NCBI RefSeq assembly: GCF_014701195.1
Contig: NZ_AP018712.1
Location: forward strand, 372,001-436,000
DNA: 64,000 nt
Origin: Tepiditoga spiralis
GTDB taxonomy: Bacteria > Thermotogota > Thermotogae > Petrotogales > Petrotogaceae
Direction: 5' to 3'
Below are positions 12,914 through 17,938 of the stretch, one piece after another; the stretch's first letter is position 1; every line of letters begins with the position of its first letter. Made by a program: the position numbers and the translations under genes. The notes under the pieces were generated by a model. That model saw only the letters and a list, made by a program, of their open reading frames with translations, ran no database searches and was not told where the DNA came from.

Positions 12914-12946
12914 AAATAAAACAAGAGCAAAGCTCTTGTTTTATTT
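12914..12946 (-). terminator. Terminator of the Wzz-like gene
   Basis: A perfect 15-bp stem with loop AAA; core ACAAGAGC/GCTCTTGT, followed by T-rich sequence on the minus strand. It overlaps the stop codon at 12941. Confidence 0.88.
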
Positions 12947-14767
12947 AATATATACGTAAACCATATTTTTAATAGACTTTTTAGCTTCAACAACATGATC
13001 TATATTTGTTTCTTTTTCTTTTACTAAAATTATATTAACATCTAAAATATTTTTATACAAAATATAATCTTCAGATTCAAAATCTATAAAGCTCAAAATA
13101 TTTTTATCTTTTCCCTTAACCTCATCAAAAACTTTTATCTTATCTGAAATTGTATGAGTATCATAAAAATCATAATCATTATTTACTTCATACAACTTAT
13201 TATAAACAAATCTACCAATCTTATGAATTTCAGGATCACTAGACAAAGAAATAATACCAATATTATTTCCACCATGCTGATAAATATAATTTGCAAGTTT
13301 ATTAACTTCTTTTTTACTCATTTTAATTTCAGGAACACCAAACAAAGCTTCAAATTCGTTTATATCTTTAATTGTTTTATCCGAAGATTCTTTTAAAAAT
13401 ACTCCAAGAATACCCAAGAAAATTCCCAAAACAATACCAATGGCAAGAGTTAACTTTTTATTTGGTGCAACAGGCTTTAAAGGAACATAAACAGGAGAAA
13501 CAACATCAAACTTTTGCTGATACAAACTCTTTTTCATTTTTTCAGATTCAACAAGGTTCAAAAGAGAGTTATACTTTGTTTCAAGTATCTTTTGATTCTT
13601 TTTCAATTCATAATATTTATACAAAATAGGAGACTTTTTAGAAATTTCAGCATCAATCATGCTTAAAATTTTTTTATTTACATTTTTTAAAACATCAAAC
13701 ATTTCAAGTTGAGTCTTTGTACTTATATAATCATTAAAAGTGTTTTTATCCGTTGCTGCAAGAAAGTTTAAGTTGTTTGAAAGAACCTTATTTAAAGAAG
13801 TTTTAAAATCGTTTTCTTGAACAGATATAACAGCATTTAATTCATCAATTTTTGGAGAGTTTGGCTGAGTTAGCTTTAAAGTTTCTAAGGTCATCTTATT
13901 TTTTTCTAAAGAAACCTTTAAATTATTCAATGCCGAAACAGAGTTAACAGCCAAATATTCTTTCATATCTGGATTCAACTTCAATAAATTTGATTCAATA
14001 GCCTTTAACTTCATTTCTAATTGAGACTTTTGAGAATCAAGCTTTAATAAGTTCATATAAGTTGTTGCATAATAACTAATCATTGGATCATTTTGAACTT
14101 GACTACTTGTTATCTTATTTTTTATCTGATAATCCATTATTTCTTTATTTATTAAATCAAATTGAGTTTCTGTATCATTAAATAATTTATTTATTCCACT
14201 CATGTATTCTGCATTATTTTTATAATAATTATCTTCTGAATACTTCATATAATGTTTATAAAGCAAAGAAACAACAGAAGCAGCAAAGGTTGGATCACTA
14301 TTTTTATAAGAAATATTCAAAAGGCTTGTATCTTTAACATTATTAATGCTTATATCTTCTTTTAATTTATCTATAAAATCTCTTTCAGTATAAGTAATTC
14401 CTCTAAGTTTTGTTAAAAATCCTTTATTTTCATTTGCCTTTTCAACCATATTTAAATCTTTTATTACTTCTTTTAAAACTTCATCGGACTTCATCTTTTC
14501 TATTTCTGTTGAAAGAGAAGAGTTTCCACCTGTTGAAATACCCGCTAAAGAAGCTAAACCACTCAAACTACCAAGTGAAAAAGAAGAACCGCTACTTCCC
14601 TTATACTCAATAGTTTGTTTAACCTCATAAACAGGCTTTGCAAAAGCAAACAAATAAATTAAAGTTAAAACAAAAGTAGAAATTAAAATTATCCAAAAAA
14701 ACTTACTTCTTCTTTTAAAAATTCTTAAAATGTCTGAAAGACTCAACTCCATTTCTTGTTCTTCCAT
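12941..14767 (-). CDS. Wzz-like polysaccharide chain-length/co-polymerase protein with degenerate kinase-like tail
   Basis: This 608-residue protein begins with a cytoplasmic tail, a membrane helix at about 22-42 (FFWIILISTFVLTLIYLFAF) and a Wzz domain (PVYEVKQTIEYKG). A long coiled-coil extracytoplasmic part follows (about 90-410), then the Pro-rich second membrane region PLKPVAPNKKLTLAIGIVLGIFLG. The C-terminal about 140 residues (NKLANYIYQHGGNNIGIISLSSDPEIHKIG and onward) look like a tyrosine autokinase (BY-kinase) fold with no Walker A GxxxxGKT. It should set polymer length for the neighbouring locus, although it is transcribed away from it. Confidence 0.82.
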   Translation of the reverse strand: MEEQEMELSLSDILRIFKRRSKFFWIILISTFVLTLIYLFAFAKPVYEVKQTIEYKGSSGSSFSLGSLSGLASLAGISTGGNSSLSTEIEKMKSDEVLKEVIKDLNMVEKANENKGFLTKLRGITYTERDFIDKLKEDISINNVKDTSLLNISYKNSDPTFAASVVSLLYKHYMKYSEDNYYKNNAEYMSGINKLFNDTETQFDLINKEIMDYQIKNKITSSQVQNDPMISYYATTYMNLLKLDSQKSQLEMKLKAIESNLLKLNPDMKEYLAVNSVSALNNLKVSLEKNKMTLETLKLTQPNSPKIDELNAVISVQENDFKTSLNKVLSNNLNFLAATDKNTFNDYISTKTQLEMFDVLKNVNKKILSMIDAEISKKSPILYKYYELKKNQKILETKYNSLLNLVESEKMKKSLYQQKFDVVSPVYVPLKPVAPNKKLTLAIGIVLGIFLGILGVFLKESSDKTIKDINEFEALFGVPEIKMSKKEVNKLANYIYQHGGNNIGIISLSSDPEIHKIGRFVYNKLYEVNNDYDFYDTHTISDKIKVFDEVKGKDKNILSFIDFESEDYILYKNILDVNIILVKEKETNIDHVVEAKKSIKNMVYVYIK

Positions 14768-15059
14768 AAAAATCCTCCTAATTTATCTTTATTTTTTGTA
14801 TTGAATTTTTTTATTAATTACTCTTATGATTATTTATAGTTATTATTTTTCATATTAACTTTTTTATTTTACCATAAAAAATAAAAAAATAAAACACAAA
14901 CAACAAAGTTTAAACATAAAAAATAAAACGTTTTAAAGACTTGAAAGGTGTAATCAAATCCTCACCTTTAAGTTGTAAATAAAAATTTACACAAATTCAA
15001 TAATAAAAATGGATATTATAAGTGGACGTCCAAAAAACTAAAAAGAGGAGATGAAAATC
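14768..15059. other. Divergent intergenic region with an inverted repeat
   Basis: No gene is visible. AAAGGTG (14944-14950) and CACCTTT (14963-14969) form a perfect 7-bp inverted repeat with a 12-base centre, about 90 bases before the small-protein cluster. It is not followed by a T run, so it looks more like an operator or leader hairpin than a terminator. I could not identify a convincing -35/-10 pair. Confidence 0.4.
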
Positions 15060-15260
15060 ATGGCAAAAAATCTATTGAAAAAAAGTGGAAAAGTAGCATA
15101 CACAGAAACAATAAACGGAAAGGAAAAAAGAACAACAAAAACTTACAATCTCTACACAGATGATGACACATTAATAAAACAAGCCTTAGATGAAGTAGTA
15201 AATCTTTCCTCAAACAAAAATGCTTTTTATGCATACAGAGAGGATTATGAAATAATTTAA
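15060..15260 (+). CDS. Small DUF1659-like protein
   Basis: This 66-residue protein begins MAKNLLKKSGKVAYTETING and continues with KTYNLYTDDDTLIKQALDEVVNLSS. The pattern of a short beta hairpin, a polar turn and a helix with an A-x-x-x-V/L periodicity resembles DUF1659 proteins of Firmicutes, which often neighbour DUF2922 proteins. The ATG at 15060 follows GAGGAG by 9 bases; the ATG at 15051 abuts the ribosome site and is rejected. First gene of a run of small genes. The family assignment is by pattern only. Confidence 0.6.
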   Translation: MAKNLLKKSGKVAYTETINGKEKRTTKTYNLYTDDDTLIKQALDEVVNLSSNKNAFYAYREDYEII

Positions 15261-15308
15261 AGATTAACAAAAATAATAAAAAATAATTAAACTAAGGAGG
15301 AGATTTTA

Positions 15309-15521
15309 ATGAAAAAACTTACAATGAAATTTTATGATGTGAATGCAAAGAAAAATTACACAGTAAACATATCTGACTTTGATGATACAAAAACTCAAGA
15401 AGAAATACAAGCATCAATGGATAAAATGATTGGAGTTCTTGTTCCAACAACAGCAGCAAAAGATGAAGCTTTAATAACCGATACCAATAAAACAGAAGTA
15501 TTCAACTTAATAGAAAACTAA
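15309..15521 (+). CDS. Small DUF2922-like protein
   Basis: This 70-residue protein (MKKLTMKFYDVNAKKNYTVN, then SDFDDTKTQEEIQASMDKMIG, ending ALITDTNKTEVFNLIEN) matches the layout of DUF2922: a beta strand with an F-x-D/N turn, a helix containing a-x-M-d-x-i, and a terminal beta strand after an A-x-I/i-x-D-T segment. A strong AAGGAGG ribosome site precedes it. Its last base is the first base of the next start codon, so it is coupled to the gene at 15521. Confidence 0.62.
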   Translation: MKKLTMKFYDVNAKKNYTVNISDFDDTKTQEEIQASMDKMIGVLVPTTAAKDEALITDTNKTEVFNLIEN

Positions 15522-15712
15522 TGGACATATTAACAGGAATAATACCAACCTTGGTTAAGATGATAGAACATCCAGGAAATGGTGAAATAAAAAAGGAAAT
15601 AGTAATGAATGCAACAAAAGAAGTTTTAAAAGTAAATAATTTGTATAATCCATTATTAGATGCAGCAATATCAGCAATGATAGACGGCATAGCAGGGTTA
15701 TTAAAAAATTAA
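15521..15712 (+). CDS. Unknown 63-residue helical protein
   Basis: The protein starts at an ATG overlapping the previous stop (TAATG) and has no ribosome site of its own, so it depends on translational coupling. It is predicted helical with two mildly amphipathic stretches (DILTGIIPTLVKMIEH and NPLLDAAISAMIDGIAGLLKN). No family is recognised. In Firmicutes the comparable position is often a small YvrJ-type protein, but this sequence lacks that look. A strong terminator follows directly. Confidence 0.5.
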   Translation: MDILTGIIPTLVKMIEHPGNGEIKKEIVMNATKEVLKVNNLYNPLLDAAISAMIDGIAGLLKN

Positions 15713-15715
15713 CAT

Positions 15716-15738
15716 TGCGGGGCAAAAAATGCCCCGCA
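15716..15738 (+). terminator. Strong terminator after the three small genes
   Basis: The GC-rich stem TGCGGGGCA/TGCCCCGCA with loop AAAAA is followed by ACTTTTTGC. It separates the three small genes from the sigma-like gene. Confidence 0.88.
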
Positions 15739-15884
15739 CTTTTTGCTTAAAAAAACAAATTTATGGTATACTTATGTATATATAGATAAAAATAAGTTTA
15801 ATAGTATTTTTTTTCACATATACTAATTTTACAGTTTAGCCTATAGGTATTGTTAAAAAAACAAAATCAAAAGGGGGAGATTTT

Positions 15885-16286
15885 ATGCTGAATCAAAAAA
15901 GATTCACAGATGAACAATTGGTTCAAATGATTCAAAATGAAAAAACACCAAAAAGATTGAAGGAAAAGGCAAAAGAAACATTATTTAACAAGTACATAGG
16001 AATGCTAAAAAACAAAACAAAAAAACTCTGTGAAAACTGTTCAACAGATTTTGATGGAACATATCAATCATTATGTTATTTATTCAACCTTGCAATTAAA
16101 ACATTTAAAATGAAAGGACAATTCAAAGGATATTCAAGCAGATATATAGACCTAAAGGTTATGAATGACATAGGAAAACAAAAAACAAAACTACCCTATG
16201 TTGGAAAAGAAAGCCCATTTTATATACGAAATTGGGATAAAGTTTATTTTTATGAAGAAACATCAGAAGTTTATAACAGAGAGTAA
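15885..16286 (+). CDS. Sigma-70 region-2-like protein without region 4
   Basis: This 133-residue protein is preceded by a strong AAGGGGGAG ribosome site. Residues 8-105 follow the sigma region 2 pattern: an N-terminal helix (TDEQLVQMIQNE), a long helix (AKETLFNKYIGMLKNKTKKL), then AIKTFKMKGQFKGYSSRYIDLKVMNDIGKQ, where F-x-x-Y and the following helix correspond to core-binding 2.2 and the -10 recognition area. No helix-turn-helix region 4 follows. It could act like B. subtilis RsoA, which supplies region 2 to a partner, or be a truncated sigma. Four-Cys metal binding is not evident (only two Cys). Confidence 0.55.
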   Translation: MLNQKRFTDEQLVQMIQNEKTPKRLKEKAKETLFNKYIGMLKNKTKKLCENCSTDFDGTYQSLCYLFNLAIKTFKMKGQFKGYSSRYIDLKVMNDIGKQKTKLPYVGKESPFYIRNWDKVYFYEETSEVYNRE

Positions 16287-16290
16287 GTTA

Positions 16291-16313
16291 AATCCTCCAC
16301 TTTGTGGAGGATT
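16291..16313 (+). terminator. Terminator of the sigma-like gene
   Basis: AATCCTCCAC/GTGGAGGATT with loop TTT, followed by TTTATAT. Confidence 0.88.
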
Positions 16314-16517
16314 TTTATATTAATATACAAATAATGACAATTAAATAATAACATAGTCAATTAAACATTTAAAATTACCCTTTTATCTAAGATTATAAAA
16401 ATTAATAAAAAATGTATTATAATAATAGTACGTTTATTATTTTTTTCAACAGCTTAATAAATCAATCGCACGATATATTAATAATAAAATAATTTTTGGT
16501 AAAAAAAATTAACAAGG

Positions 16518-16618: not shown

Positions 16619-17938
16619 ATGAGAAAAGCTATAAAGTTACTAGACATGCTTATCATACTTTTATTCAATATATATGCAATGGCTTTGCCAATTTGGTTAT
16701 CATTAATAATAACAGCAGCATTATTCATAGGGCTATATGCATTTAGAACATATGACAGTGAAAACATGAAATCAATAAATGAAAATTTAATAAGAACAAC
16801 AGTTGGAACAATAATAGGTTATATAATAATATTGCTCGTTTATGTATTTATTGAAAAATATATAAACAGATATATATTCTTATATAACCTATTATTTGTT
16901 ATGATAACAATACCTGTTCTTCACAAAATAGAATACATTTTATATTCAAAACACTTTCCAGTAAAAAGATATCTTGTAATAGGAAGAAAAAATGAAATAG
17001 GAAAAATATTAGACGAAATAACAAAAAAATCAATGAACAAACTACAATTTGTAGAATATATAAACCCTTCACCAGTAAGACTTGAAAAGTTAATGACAGA
17101 AAATTATGAAGAAAAAAATCCATTATACTTTTTCAACTTAAAAAAAGAAAAAGAAACAGCAAAAAACAACTTCAACGCAATAATAATAACCGATCCAAAA
17201 TTAGAAGACTTAGTAAAACCGCAACTTCAAGAATACAAAAAAAGAAATATACCAATAGAGTACCTTCCAAACATAGCAGAAAACTATTTAAAAAGAATAC
17301 CACTTGAAGTAGCAGAAAAGTTTAAAGAATATTATGAAGTTATCTTTCAAAATGTTAAAGAATCGCCAGCAAAACGGATTGGAGACATTATAATATCCTC
17401 TGTTTTATTTGCTGTTTTTTCACCGTTTATGCTTATAATTTCTTTTTTTACACTATTTGAAGACGGAAAGCCAATTGTTTTTTCTCAAAAAAGAGTTGGA
17501 AAAAACGAACAATTATTCAAAATGCACAAGTTTAGATCATTAAAAAATCAACCAATAAACAAAGAAAATCCAAATGCTGGAATAGAACAAAGAGTATTAA
17601 AAATAGGGAAAATAACAAGAAAATTAAGAATAGATGAAACGCTACAGTTTTTTAATGTTTTAATTGGAAATATGTCTATAGTTGGTTCAAGACCAGAAAT
17701 GCAAGAGTTTCACAATCAAATGAAGGGAAAAATACTATTTTATCCAAAAAGACTTTTATTAAACCCTGGAATAACAGGCTGGGCACAAATAAACTATAAG
17801 CATACAACAACTTTAGAAGATTACAAAAAAAAGACAGAATATGATTTATATTACATAAAAAACAGAACATCGATAATGGACTTACAAATAATGCTAAAAA
17901 CAGCAGAAACGATGTTGGGAATGAGAGGTTCTAGATAG
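16619..17938 (+). CDS. Polyprenyl-phosphate sugar-1-phosphate transferase (initiating transferase, WcaJ-like)
   Basis: This 439-residue protein has four to five N-terminal membrane helices (to about residue 110), a CoA-binding-like Rossmann region (KRYLVIGRKNEIGKIL) and a C-terminal Bac_transf domain from about 255. The domain shows KRIGDIIISSVLFAVFSP, QKRVGKNEQLFKMHKFRSL, GSRPE (about 357) and NPGITGWAQ (about 380). It transfers a sugar phosphate to the lipid carrier and starts each repeat unit. The ATG at 16619 follows a GGGGGA site; the longer frame from 16556 runs through promoter B and is rejected. Confidence 0.92.
   Translation: MRKAIKLLDMLIILLFNIYAMALPIWLSLIITAALFIGLYAFRTYDSENMKSINENLIRTTVGTIIGYIIILLVYVFIEKYINRYIFLYNLLFVMITIPVLHKIEYILYSKHFPVKRYLVIGRKNEIGKILDEITKKSMNKLQFVEYINPSPVRLEKLMTENYEEKNPLYFFNLKKEKETAKNNFNAIIITDPKLEDLVKPQLQEYKKRNIPIEYLPNIAENYLKRIPLEVAEKFKEYYEVIFQNVKESPAKRIGDIIISSVLFAVFSPFMLIISFFTLFEDGKPIVFSQKRVGKNEQLFKMHKFRSLKNQPINKENPNAGIEQRVLKIGKITRKLRIDETLQFFNVLIGNMSIVGSRPEMQEFHNQMKGKILFYPKRLLLNPGITGWAQINYKHTTTLEDYKKKTEYDLYYIKNRTSIMDLQIMLKTAETMLGMRGSR

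Follow-up and report, generated by a model that had tools for sequence, protein, structure and literature searches.

Several described systems resemble parts of the locus reported here. In Clostridium, Bcn5 bacteriocin loci are always found together with genes for the sigma factor UviA, the holin UviB and an amidase (PMC9527704). In Bacillus subtilis, the SigO-RsoA pair, in which sigma region 2 resides on a separate small protein, drives yvrJ (PMC8103513). Thermotoga maritima, to which a genome study attributes four sigma factors (PMC3636130), possesses a proven N-acetylglucosaminidase, TM0633, whose PDB entry is 4QDN (PMC8943055). In the open literature that we searched, DUF2922 is named nowhere, DUF1659 appears in one unrelated paper and no relevant paper names TM0634-TM0637, the numbers expected for the neighbors of TM0633; a description in a closed-access source is possible.

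We analyzed a stretch of 64,000 nucleotides (hereafter, the window) from the closed 2.5 Mb chromosome of Tepiditoga spiralis. A preliminary description of this DNA had pointed to a four-gene unit in what it supposed to be a Thermotogota genome, located between a Wzz gene and the gene of an initiating sugar transferase. All of this was borne out: the organism is a member of Thermotogota, the four frames are on the plus strand, P1, P2 and P4 are preceded by good Shine-Dalgarno sequences, both terminators are present and both neighbors match the respective Pfam families. The features, in window coordinates, are as follows.

12941-14767, minus strand: Wzz chain-length gene, divergent neighbor (PF02706, 2.8e-11; PF13807, 2.9e-9)
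15014-15019, plus strand: probable -10 element of P1-P2-P3, TATTAT, read in the sequence
15023-15032, plus strand: dyad TGGACGTCCA with an A run after it, located where transcription of P1-P2-P3 would be expected to start
15060-15260, plus strand: P1, 66 residues, DUF1659-like, with neither a signal peptide nor a membrane segment
15309-15521, plus strand: P2, 70 residues, DUF2922 (PF11148)
15521-15712, plus strand: P3, 63 residues, holin-related; its start overlaps the stop of P2 (TAATGG)
15716-15738, plus strand: intrinsic terminator 3' of P3, a stem of 9 pairs and a T run
15767-15780, no strand: palindrome TATACTTATGTATA over the extended -10 element (TATGGTATACT) of the P4 transcript
15885-16286, plus strand: P4, 133 residues, sigma-70 region-2-type, lacking region 4
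16290-16314, plus strand: intrinsic terminator 3' of P4, a stem of 11 pairs and a T run
16619-17938, plus strand: initiating sugar transferase gene (Bac_transf, PF02397, 8.6e-53), neighbor

The region contains three terminator-like sites, with 0.8 expected, one of them being the same hairpin read on the opposite strand. When the four proteins were searched individually against Pfam, NCBIfam and PHROGs, the sole match was that of P2 to DUF2922. The nature of P1, P3 and P4, which have no curated match of their own, is thus deduced from their relatives. All four are nevertheless real genes, because they recur together across the phylum.

The module resembles the UviA-UviB-amidase-Bcn5 loci of Clostridium, and also the holin-associated loci of the large clostridial toxins, in that a diverged regulator of sigma type is combined with a murein hydrolase, a small protein resembling holins and a putative cargo devoid of a signal. 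However, P4 consists of region 2 only, and P3 relates to another holin family and has no clear membrane helix. The Thermotogota hydrolase is a GH73 enzyme and is adjacent only in Thermotoga relatives, the candidate cargo comprises two proteins of about 70 residues, and the cassette is chromosomal and located beside polysaccharide genes. The kinds of parts are already known, and it is their combination, its phylum-wide spread and the region-2-only regulator that appear to be new.

Conservation of the module and the DUF1659-DUF2922 pair

DUF2922 is present in 84 of 103 Thermotogota genomes (among the 82 good ones, in 73) and in 34 of 38 genera. Among 14 control genomes, both DUF2922 and DUF1659 were found in T. 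maritima alone, and nearly all DUF1659 matches lie directly upstream of DUF2922. The cassette is thus probably present in T. maritima too. Neither family was detected in the B. subtilis control genome, and phage records contain no DUF2922 match.

The preliminary description had proposed a survey of gene neighborhoods. We called frames and built profiles in 80 stretches around DUF1659/DUF2922 genes and in the studied one (81 in total), and the neighborhood proved to be conserved: 79 of the stretches contain DUF2922, 68 contain P3 and 47 contain P4. The usual order is P1-P2-P3-P4, and successive genes overlap or are a few bases apart. P3 is shifted to the front in part of the family of the studied copy, many P2-P3 modules are devoid of P4, and some Thermotogota genomes carry several copies of the module. 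In one genus (g5; L118-L122), a 73-residue coiled-coil protein and a 67-residue protein that resembles a DNA-binding protein stand in place of P3 and P4.

The assignment of P2 to DUF2922, made earlier from the sequence by eye, is firm (41.6 bits with a Pfam cut-off of 25.5; E 1.1e-10). That of P1 to DUF1659 stands at the level of the family only: P1 alone has no Pfam match and does not reach the cut-off of PF07872, whereas a comparison of the P1 family profile with that of DUF1659 gave an hhalign probability of 89% (E 2.1e-6). Furthermore, in other families the position of P1 is taken by a true DUF1659 protein (PF07872, 1.1e-13). Relatives of the studied P1 sequence occur in 13 of 103 genomes; P1 of the window type is found in 14 stretches, and a complementary second DUF1659 cluster in 49. 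By these profile comparisons P1 is a divergent DUF1659 relative, and we call it DUF1659-like only.

DUF1659 and DUF2922 themselves show signs of a distant relationship (hhalign probability 61%, E 8e-5), and hence they may have arisen by an ancient duplication. Searches of PDB profiles with the DUF1659, P2 and P3 families returned no match, and an AlphaFold2 model of P2, built from a two-sequence alignment, was too poor for use (pLDDT 52.6).

P3, murein hydrolases and the Firmicutes sets

The P3 family has a conserved motif, hVExPGxGxxKKxxV ... ID. The holin family PHROG 6918 was matched by 13 of 24 P3 members (best 7.9e-5), and other members matched four further holin PHROGs and the Pfam family Phage_holin_6_1. 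The studied copy alone matched neither holin nor other profiles. Judging by these moderate matches, the P3 family is probably related to phage holins. The hydropathy of P3 proteins, averaged over 19 residues, has a median of 1.62 across the family and is at least 1.6 in 33 of 66 members, which is borderline for a membrane helix; the studied copy has 1.27. Since it has no clear transmembrane segment, P3 may be a soluble relative of the holin domain. A protein of 92-97 residues encoded downstream of P3 in three stretches (L115, L117 and L132) combines a coiled coil with a hydrophobic segment at its C-terminus and looks XhlA-like by eye, but PHROGs gave no support for these small downstream proteins as holins.

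In Thermotoga relatives, the gene directly after P4 encodes a GH73 glucosaminidase (PF01832, 4.5e-23), whose best PDB match is 4QDN (1.4e-78). Given this match and the DUF1659 and DUF2922 hits in T. maritima, the T. maritima module would adjoin TM0633, a protein known as an enzyme, the orthologue of which ends the module in these relatives. Besides the Thermotoga-type genus (f10 g35), a single relative was seen to have a GH73 gene in the operon; there is no murein hydrolase gene next to the studied module, nor in most lineages.

In Firmicutes plasmids, a DUF1659-DUF2922 pair is followed by YvrJ and often by an amidase. These sets share with the Thermotogota module the first two genes, their order and a holin-like third gene. 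However, this third gene is YvrJ and not P3, the sets are plasmid-borne and there is no adjacent sigma gene. YvrJ, which belongs to another family than P3 and occupies the corresponding position, matches the holin family phrog_4898 (1.6e-6). The order in a Peribacillus plasmid is ComK-like, DUF1659, DUF2922, YvrJ, amidase, and amidase genes are also found near DUF2922-YvrJ in Vagococcus and Paraclostridium. Some of the plasmid copies lie beside integrases and replication genes. The ComK-like gene that heads the Peribacillus set (L173:4055-4561; PF06338, 1.4e-5) hints at a competence link. Paraclostridium bifermentans HD0315_2 carries a DUF1659-DUF2922 pair on each of four plasmids (L166, L170 and their sisters).

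P4 and its promoter palindrome

The preliminary description had read P4 as a sigma-region-2 protein. P4 alone has no sigma-domain match, and the assignment holds for its family: 33 of 38 members scanned singly match Sigma70_r2 (PF04542) at E<=0.1, the best at 1.6e-8. Sigma70_r4 is also present in three of these 38 proteins. A comparison of the P4 family profile with PDB entries placed FliA at the top (2.3e-7), followed by other sigma factors, and beyond the last helix the sequence is similar to region 2.4 of FliA. The family of the studied P4 (A5) is linked to the P4 family as a whole with an hhalign probability of 99.7%, which is partly circular as the studied sequence is in both alignments. 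An alignment made directly with the Thermotoga-type P4 covers 75 residues at 37% identity (E 3e-7). The chain ends shortly past the last region-2 helix and contains the conserved motif DDIGKRKAKMPxVPKxxPFYxRN. An AlphaFold2 model of the studied P4, built from two sequences, has a pLDDT of 66. Sigma factors are among its best Foldseek neighbors with probabilities of 0.94-0.99 and E-values near 1, which are not significant, and we treat the likeness of the model to sigma region 2 as supportive only. P4 has no match in viral contigs.

In three stretches from another genus (g7; L005, L006 and L008, at about 1480-1500), P4 genes have no ATG, GTG or TTG before the conserved region. A ribosome site, GGGGGAAACCACY, is followed there by ATA-AAA-CAT, which suggests a conserved ATA start codon.

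A palindrome, TATAC-N4-GTATA, is present in 26 copies in the modules and up to 400 bp around them (133 kb in total) and in one copy in 679 kb of flanks (binomial p 9e-20, a descriptive value only, because the motif was noticed in the same sequences). The palindrome is tied to P4: it occurs in 22 of 47 stretches with P4 and in 2 of 33 without it (Fisher p 6e-5), so that 22 of the 24 stretches bearing it carry P4. It is located at P4's own promoter where there is one, before the operon in single-operon modules, and in some cases at both places. In many operons, its right half constitutes the -10 element (GTATACTATA). As a standard -10 element is present, the palindrome could also be an operator for another protein.

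The palindrome over the studied P4 promoter is the sole copy in the window, where 0.08 is expected. The entire 2.5 Mb genome contains it in six places, compared with ten for the reversed control; the other five copies are inside genes or near unrelated ones, and no genome-wide regulon is visible. The promoter of genus g5 has a different palindrome, GTCAGCGCTGAC.

Downstream of the -10 element, a GC dyad of varying sequence followed by an A run exceeded our threshold in 20 of 79 upstream regions, compared with 2.75 in shuffles, and in the relatives it may form a 5' mRNA hairpin. The dyad of the studied copy, weaker than those that relatives have at this position, is short and below the threshold. 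Its 5' leader folds no better than shuffled sequences, and hence we do not claim an RNA hairpin for it.

Polysaccharide genes and the possible function of the module

We mapped the initiating sugar transferases (PF02397) of all genomes and counted their linkage to DUF2922 in the 22 complete ones. In 12 of these, a sugar transferase gene lies within 20 kb of DUF2922, compared with 0.67 expected by random placement (p < 1e-4, a value inflated by relatedness, as the statistics count related genomes). The linkage spans 10 of 13 genera. The association with surface polysaccharide genes, at which the preliminary description had hinted, is thus far above chance. It is not one inherited neighborhood, because the arrangement varies between genera.

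Since the list of parts equals that of the Bcn5 loci, we propose that the module is a release cassette for P1 and P2. More generally, the four genes could be the central part of a conserved cassette by which Thermotogota make and release small signal-less proteins at the cell surface under the control of a local sigma-type switch, a tentative reading to which we assign somewhat below an even chance. P1 and P2, two related small proteins, would be the likely cargo, as suggested by their size, the absence of a signal and the gene order. P3 would act on the membrane, and the murein would be opened in some lineages by the GH73 hydrolase encoded by the last gene of the operon, the TM0633 orthologue, and in the case of the studied module by a hydrolase encoded elsewhere. 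P4 would be a diverged sigma factor cut down to region 2, which binds core RNA polymerase and contacts the -10 element of the cassette's own promoters. In P4-bearing modules, with GTATAC-N4-GTATAC over the -10 element, this would create a local, self-amplifying switch. A bolder version, in which P4 is an unrecognized sigma factor across much of Thermotogota (the fifth in T. maritima) that initiates transcription via region 2 alone at GTATAC-N4-GTATAC and the -10 element, and the cassette serves as a novel route of holin type by which DUF1659/DUF2922 proteins are exported into the exopolysaccharide layer, appears to us unlikely.

The probable relation of P3 to holins, the murein hydrolase in the operon of relatives and the phylum-wide occurrence of the unit go beyond what had been described for this DNA. 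They give DUF2922 and DUF1659, two Pfam families of unknown function, a concrete, testable context, and T. maritima probably has a fifth sigma-type protein beside a known muramidase. If a region-2-only protein does initiate or redirect transcription, this would be relevant to how little a bacterial sigma factor needs. Should the cassette indeed export proteins, the range of release by a sigma factor, a holin and an endolysin would no longer end with bacteriocins and clostridial toxins but include a deep-branching phylum.

For the regulatory half, the analogy with SigO-RsoA provides a serious rival: P4 could be the region-2 subunit of a split sigma factor that controls an envelope regulon, its region-4 subunit being encoded elsewhere, and P1-P2-P3 would be stress-induced targets that are not released. 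The comparison, already drawn in the preliminary description, is apt because SigO-RsoA drives yvrJ (PMC8103513), a member of the family found after DUF2922 in several Firmicutes plasmids; the absence of region 4 from P4 and its presence in some relatives fit as well. However, the dedicated region-4 partner that P4 had been thought to need was not found in the T. spiralis genome. There are five other sigma-type frames, and all Sigma70_r4 (PF04545) hits over the cut-off share frames with region 2 (of the two region-4 families, PF04545 and PF08281, the scan covered the first, and weaker hits exist below the cut-off). P4 is closest to the region 2 of FliA type. The four recognized sigma factors of T. 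maritima (PMC3636130) include no known candidate partner, and the B. subtilis control lacks detectable DUF1659 and DUF2922. This explanation is improbable in our view. We find it similarly doubtful that P4 is a sigma mimic, which, like PhyR, would bind an anti-sigma factor or occlude core polymerase while an unrelated dimeric repressor occupies the palindrome. Region 2.3/2.4 of the studied P4 is much diverged, its C-terminal motif PxVPKxxPFYxRN is foreign to sigma factors, the palindrome has the perfect symmetry of sites for dimeric repressors, and the genus that lacks P3 and P4 combines the 67-residue DNA-binding-like protein with another palindrome. On the other hand, no anti-sigma gene was recognized in the module, and both the likeness to FliA region 2.4 and the region 4 kept in some relatives speak for a sigma factor.

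Two further explanations were considered. A fixed remnant of a mobile element, such as a lysis or partition module of a plasmid or prophage, would agree with the plasmid copies of Firmicutes, several per strain and some beside integrases and replication genes, with the holin relation of P3 and with the multiple copies in some Thermotogota genomes. It is very unlikely, as 73 of the 82 good genomes have the module, its gene order and promoter motif being conserved, and neither phage records (for DUF2922) nor viral contigs (for P4) gave a match. It is also quite improbable that P1, P2 and P3 are cytoplasmic accessory proteins of Wzz/transferase complexes with a superficial similarity to holins. 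Such a role is favored by the fact that genes of sugar transferases and glycosyltransferases are strongly linked to the module in a variety of arrangements, but in 10 of the 22 complete genomes the module is more than 20 kb away from any sugar transferase, and the Firmicutes modules are on plasmids, in several cases beside integrases or amidases, and away from polysaccharide genes.

The T. spiralis chromosome has a second initiating sugar transferase gene (chromosome positions 364587-365132), about 25 kb from the copy adjacent to P4, and the module is located between the two.
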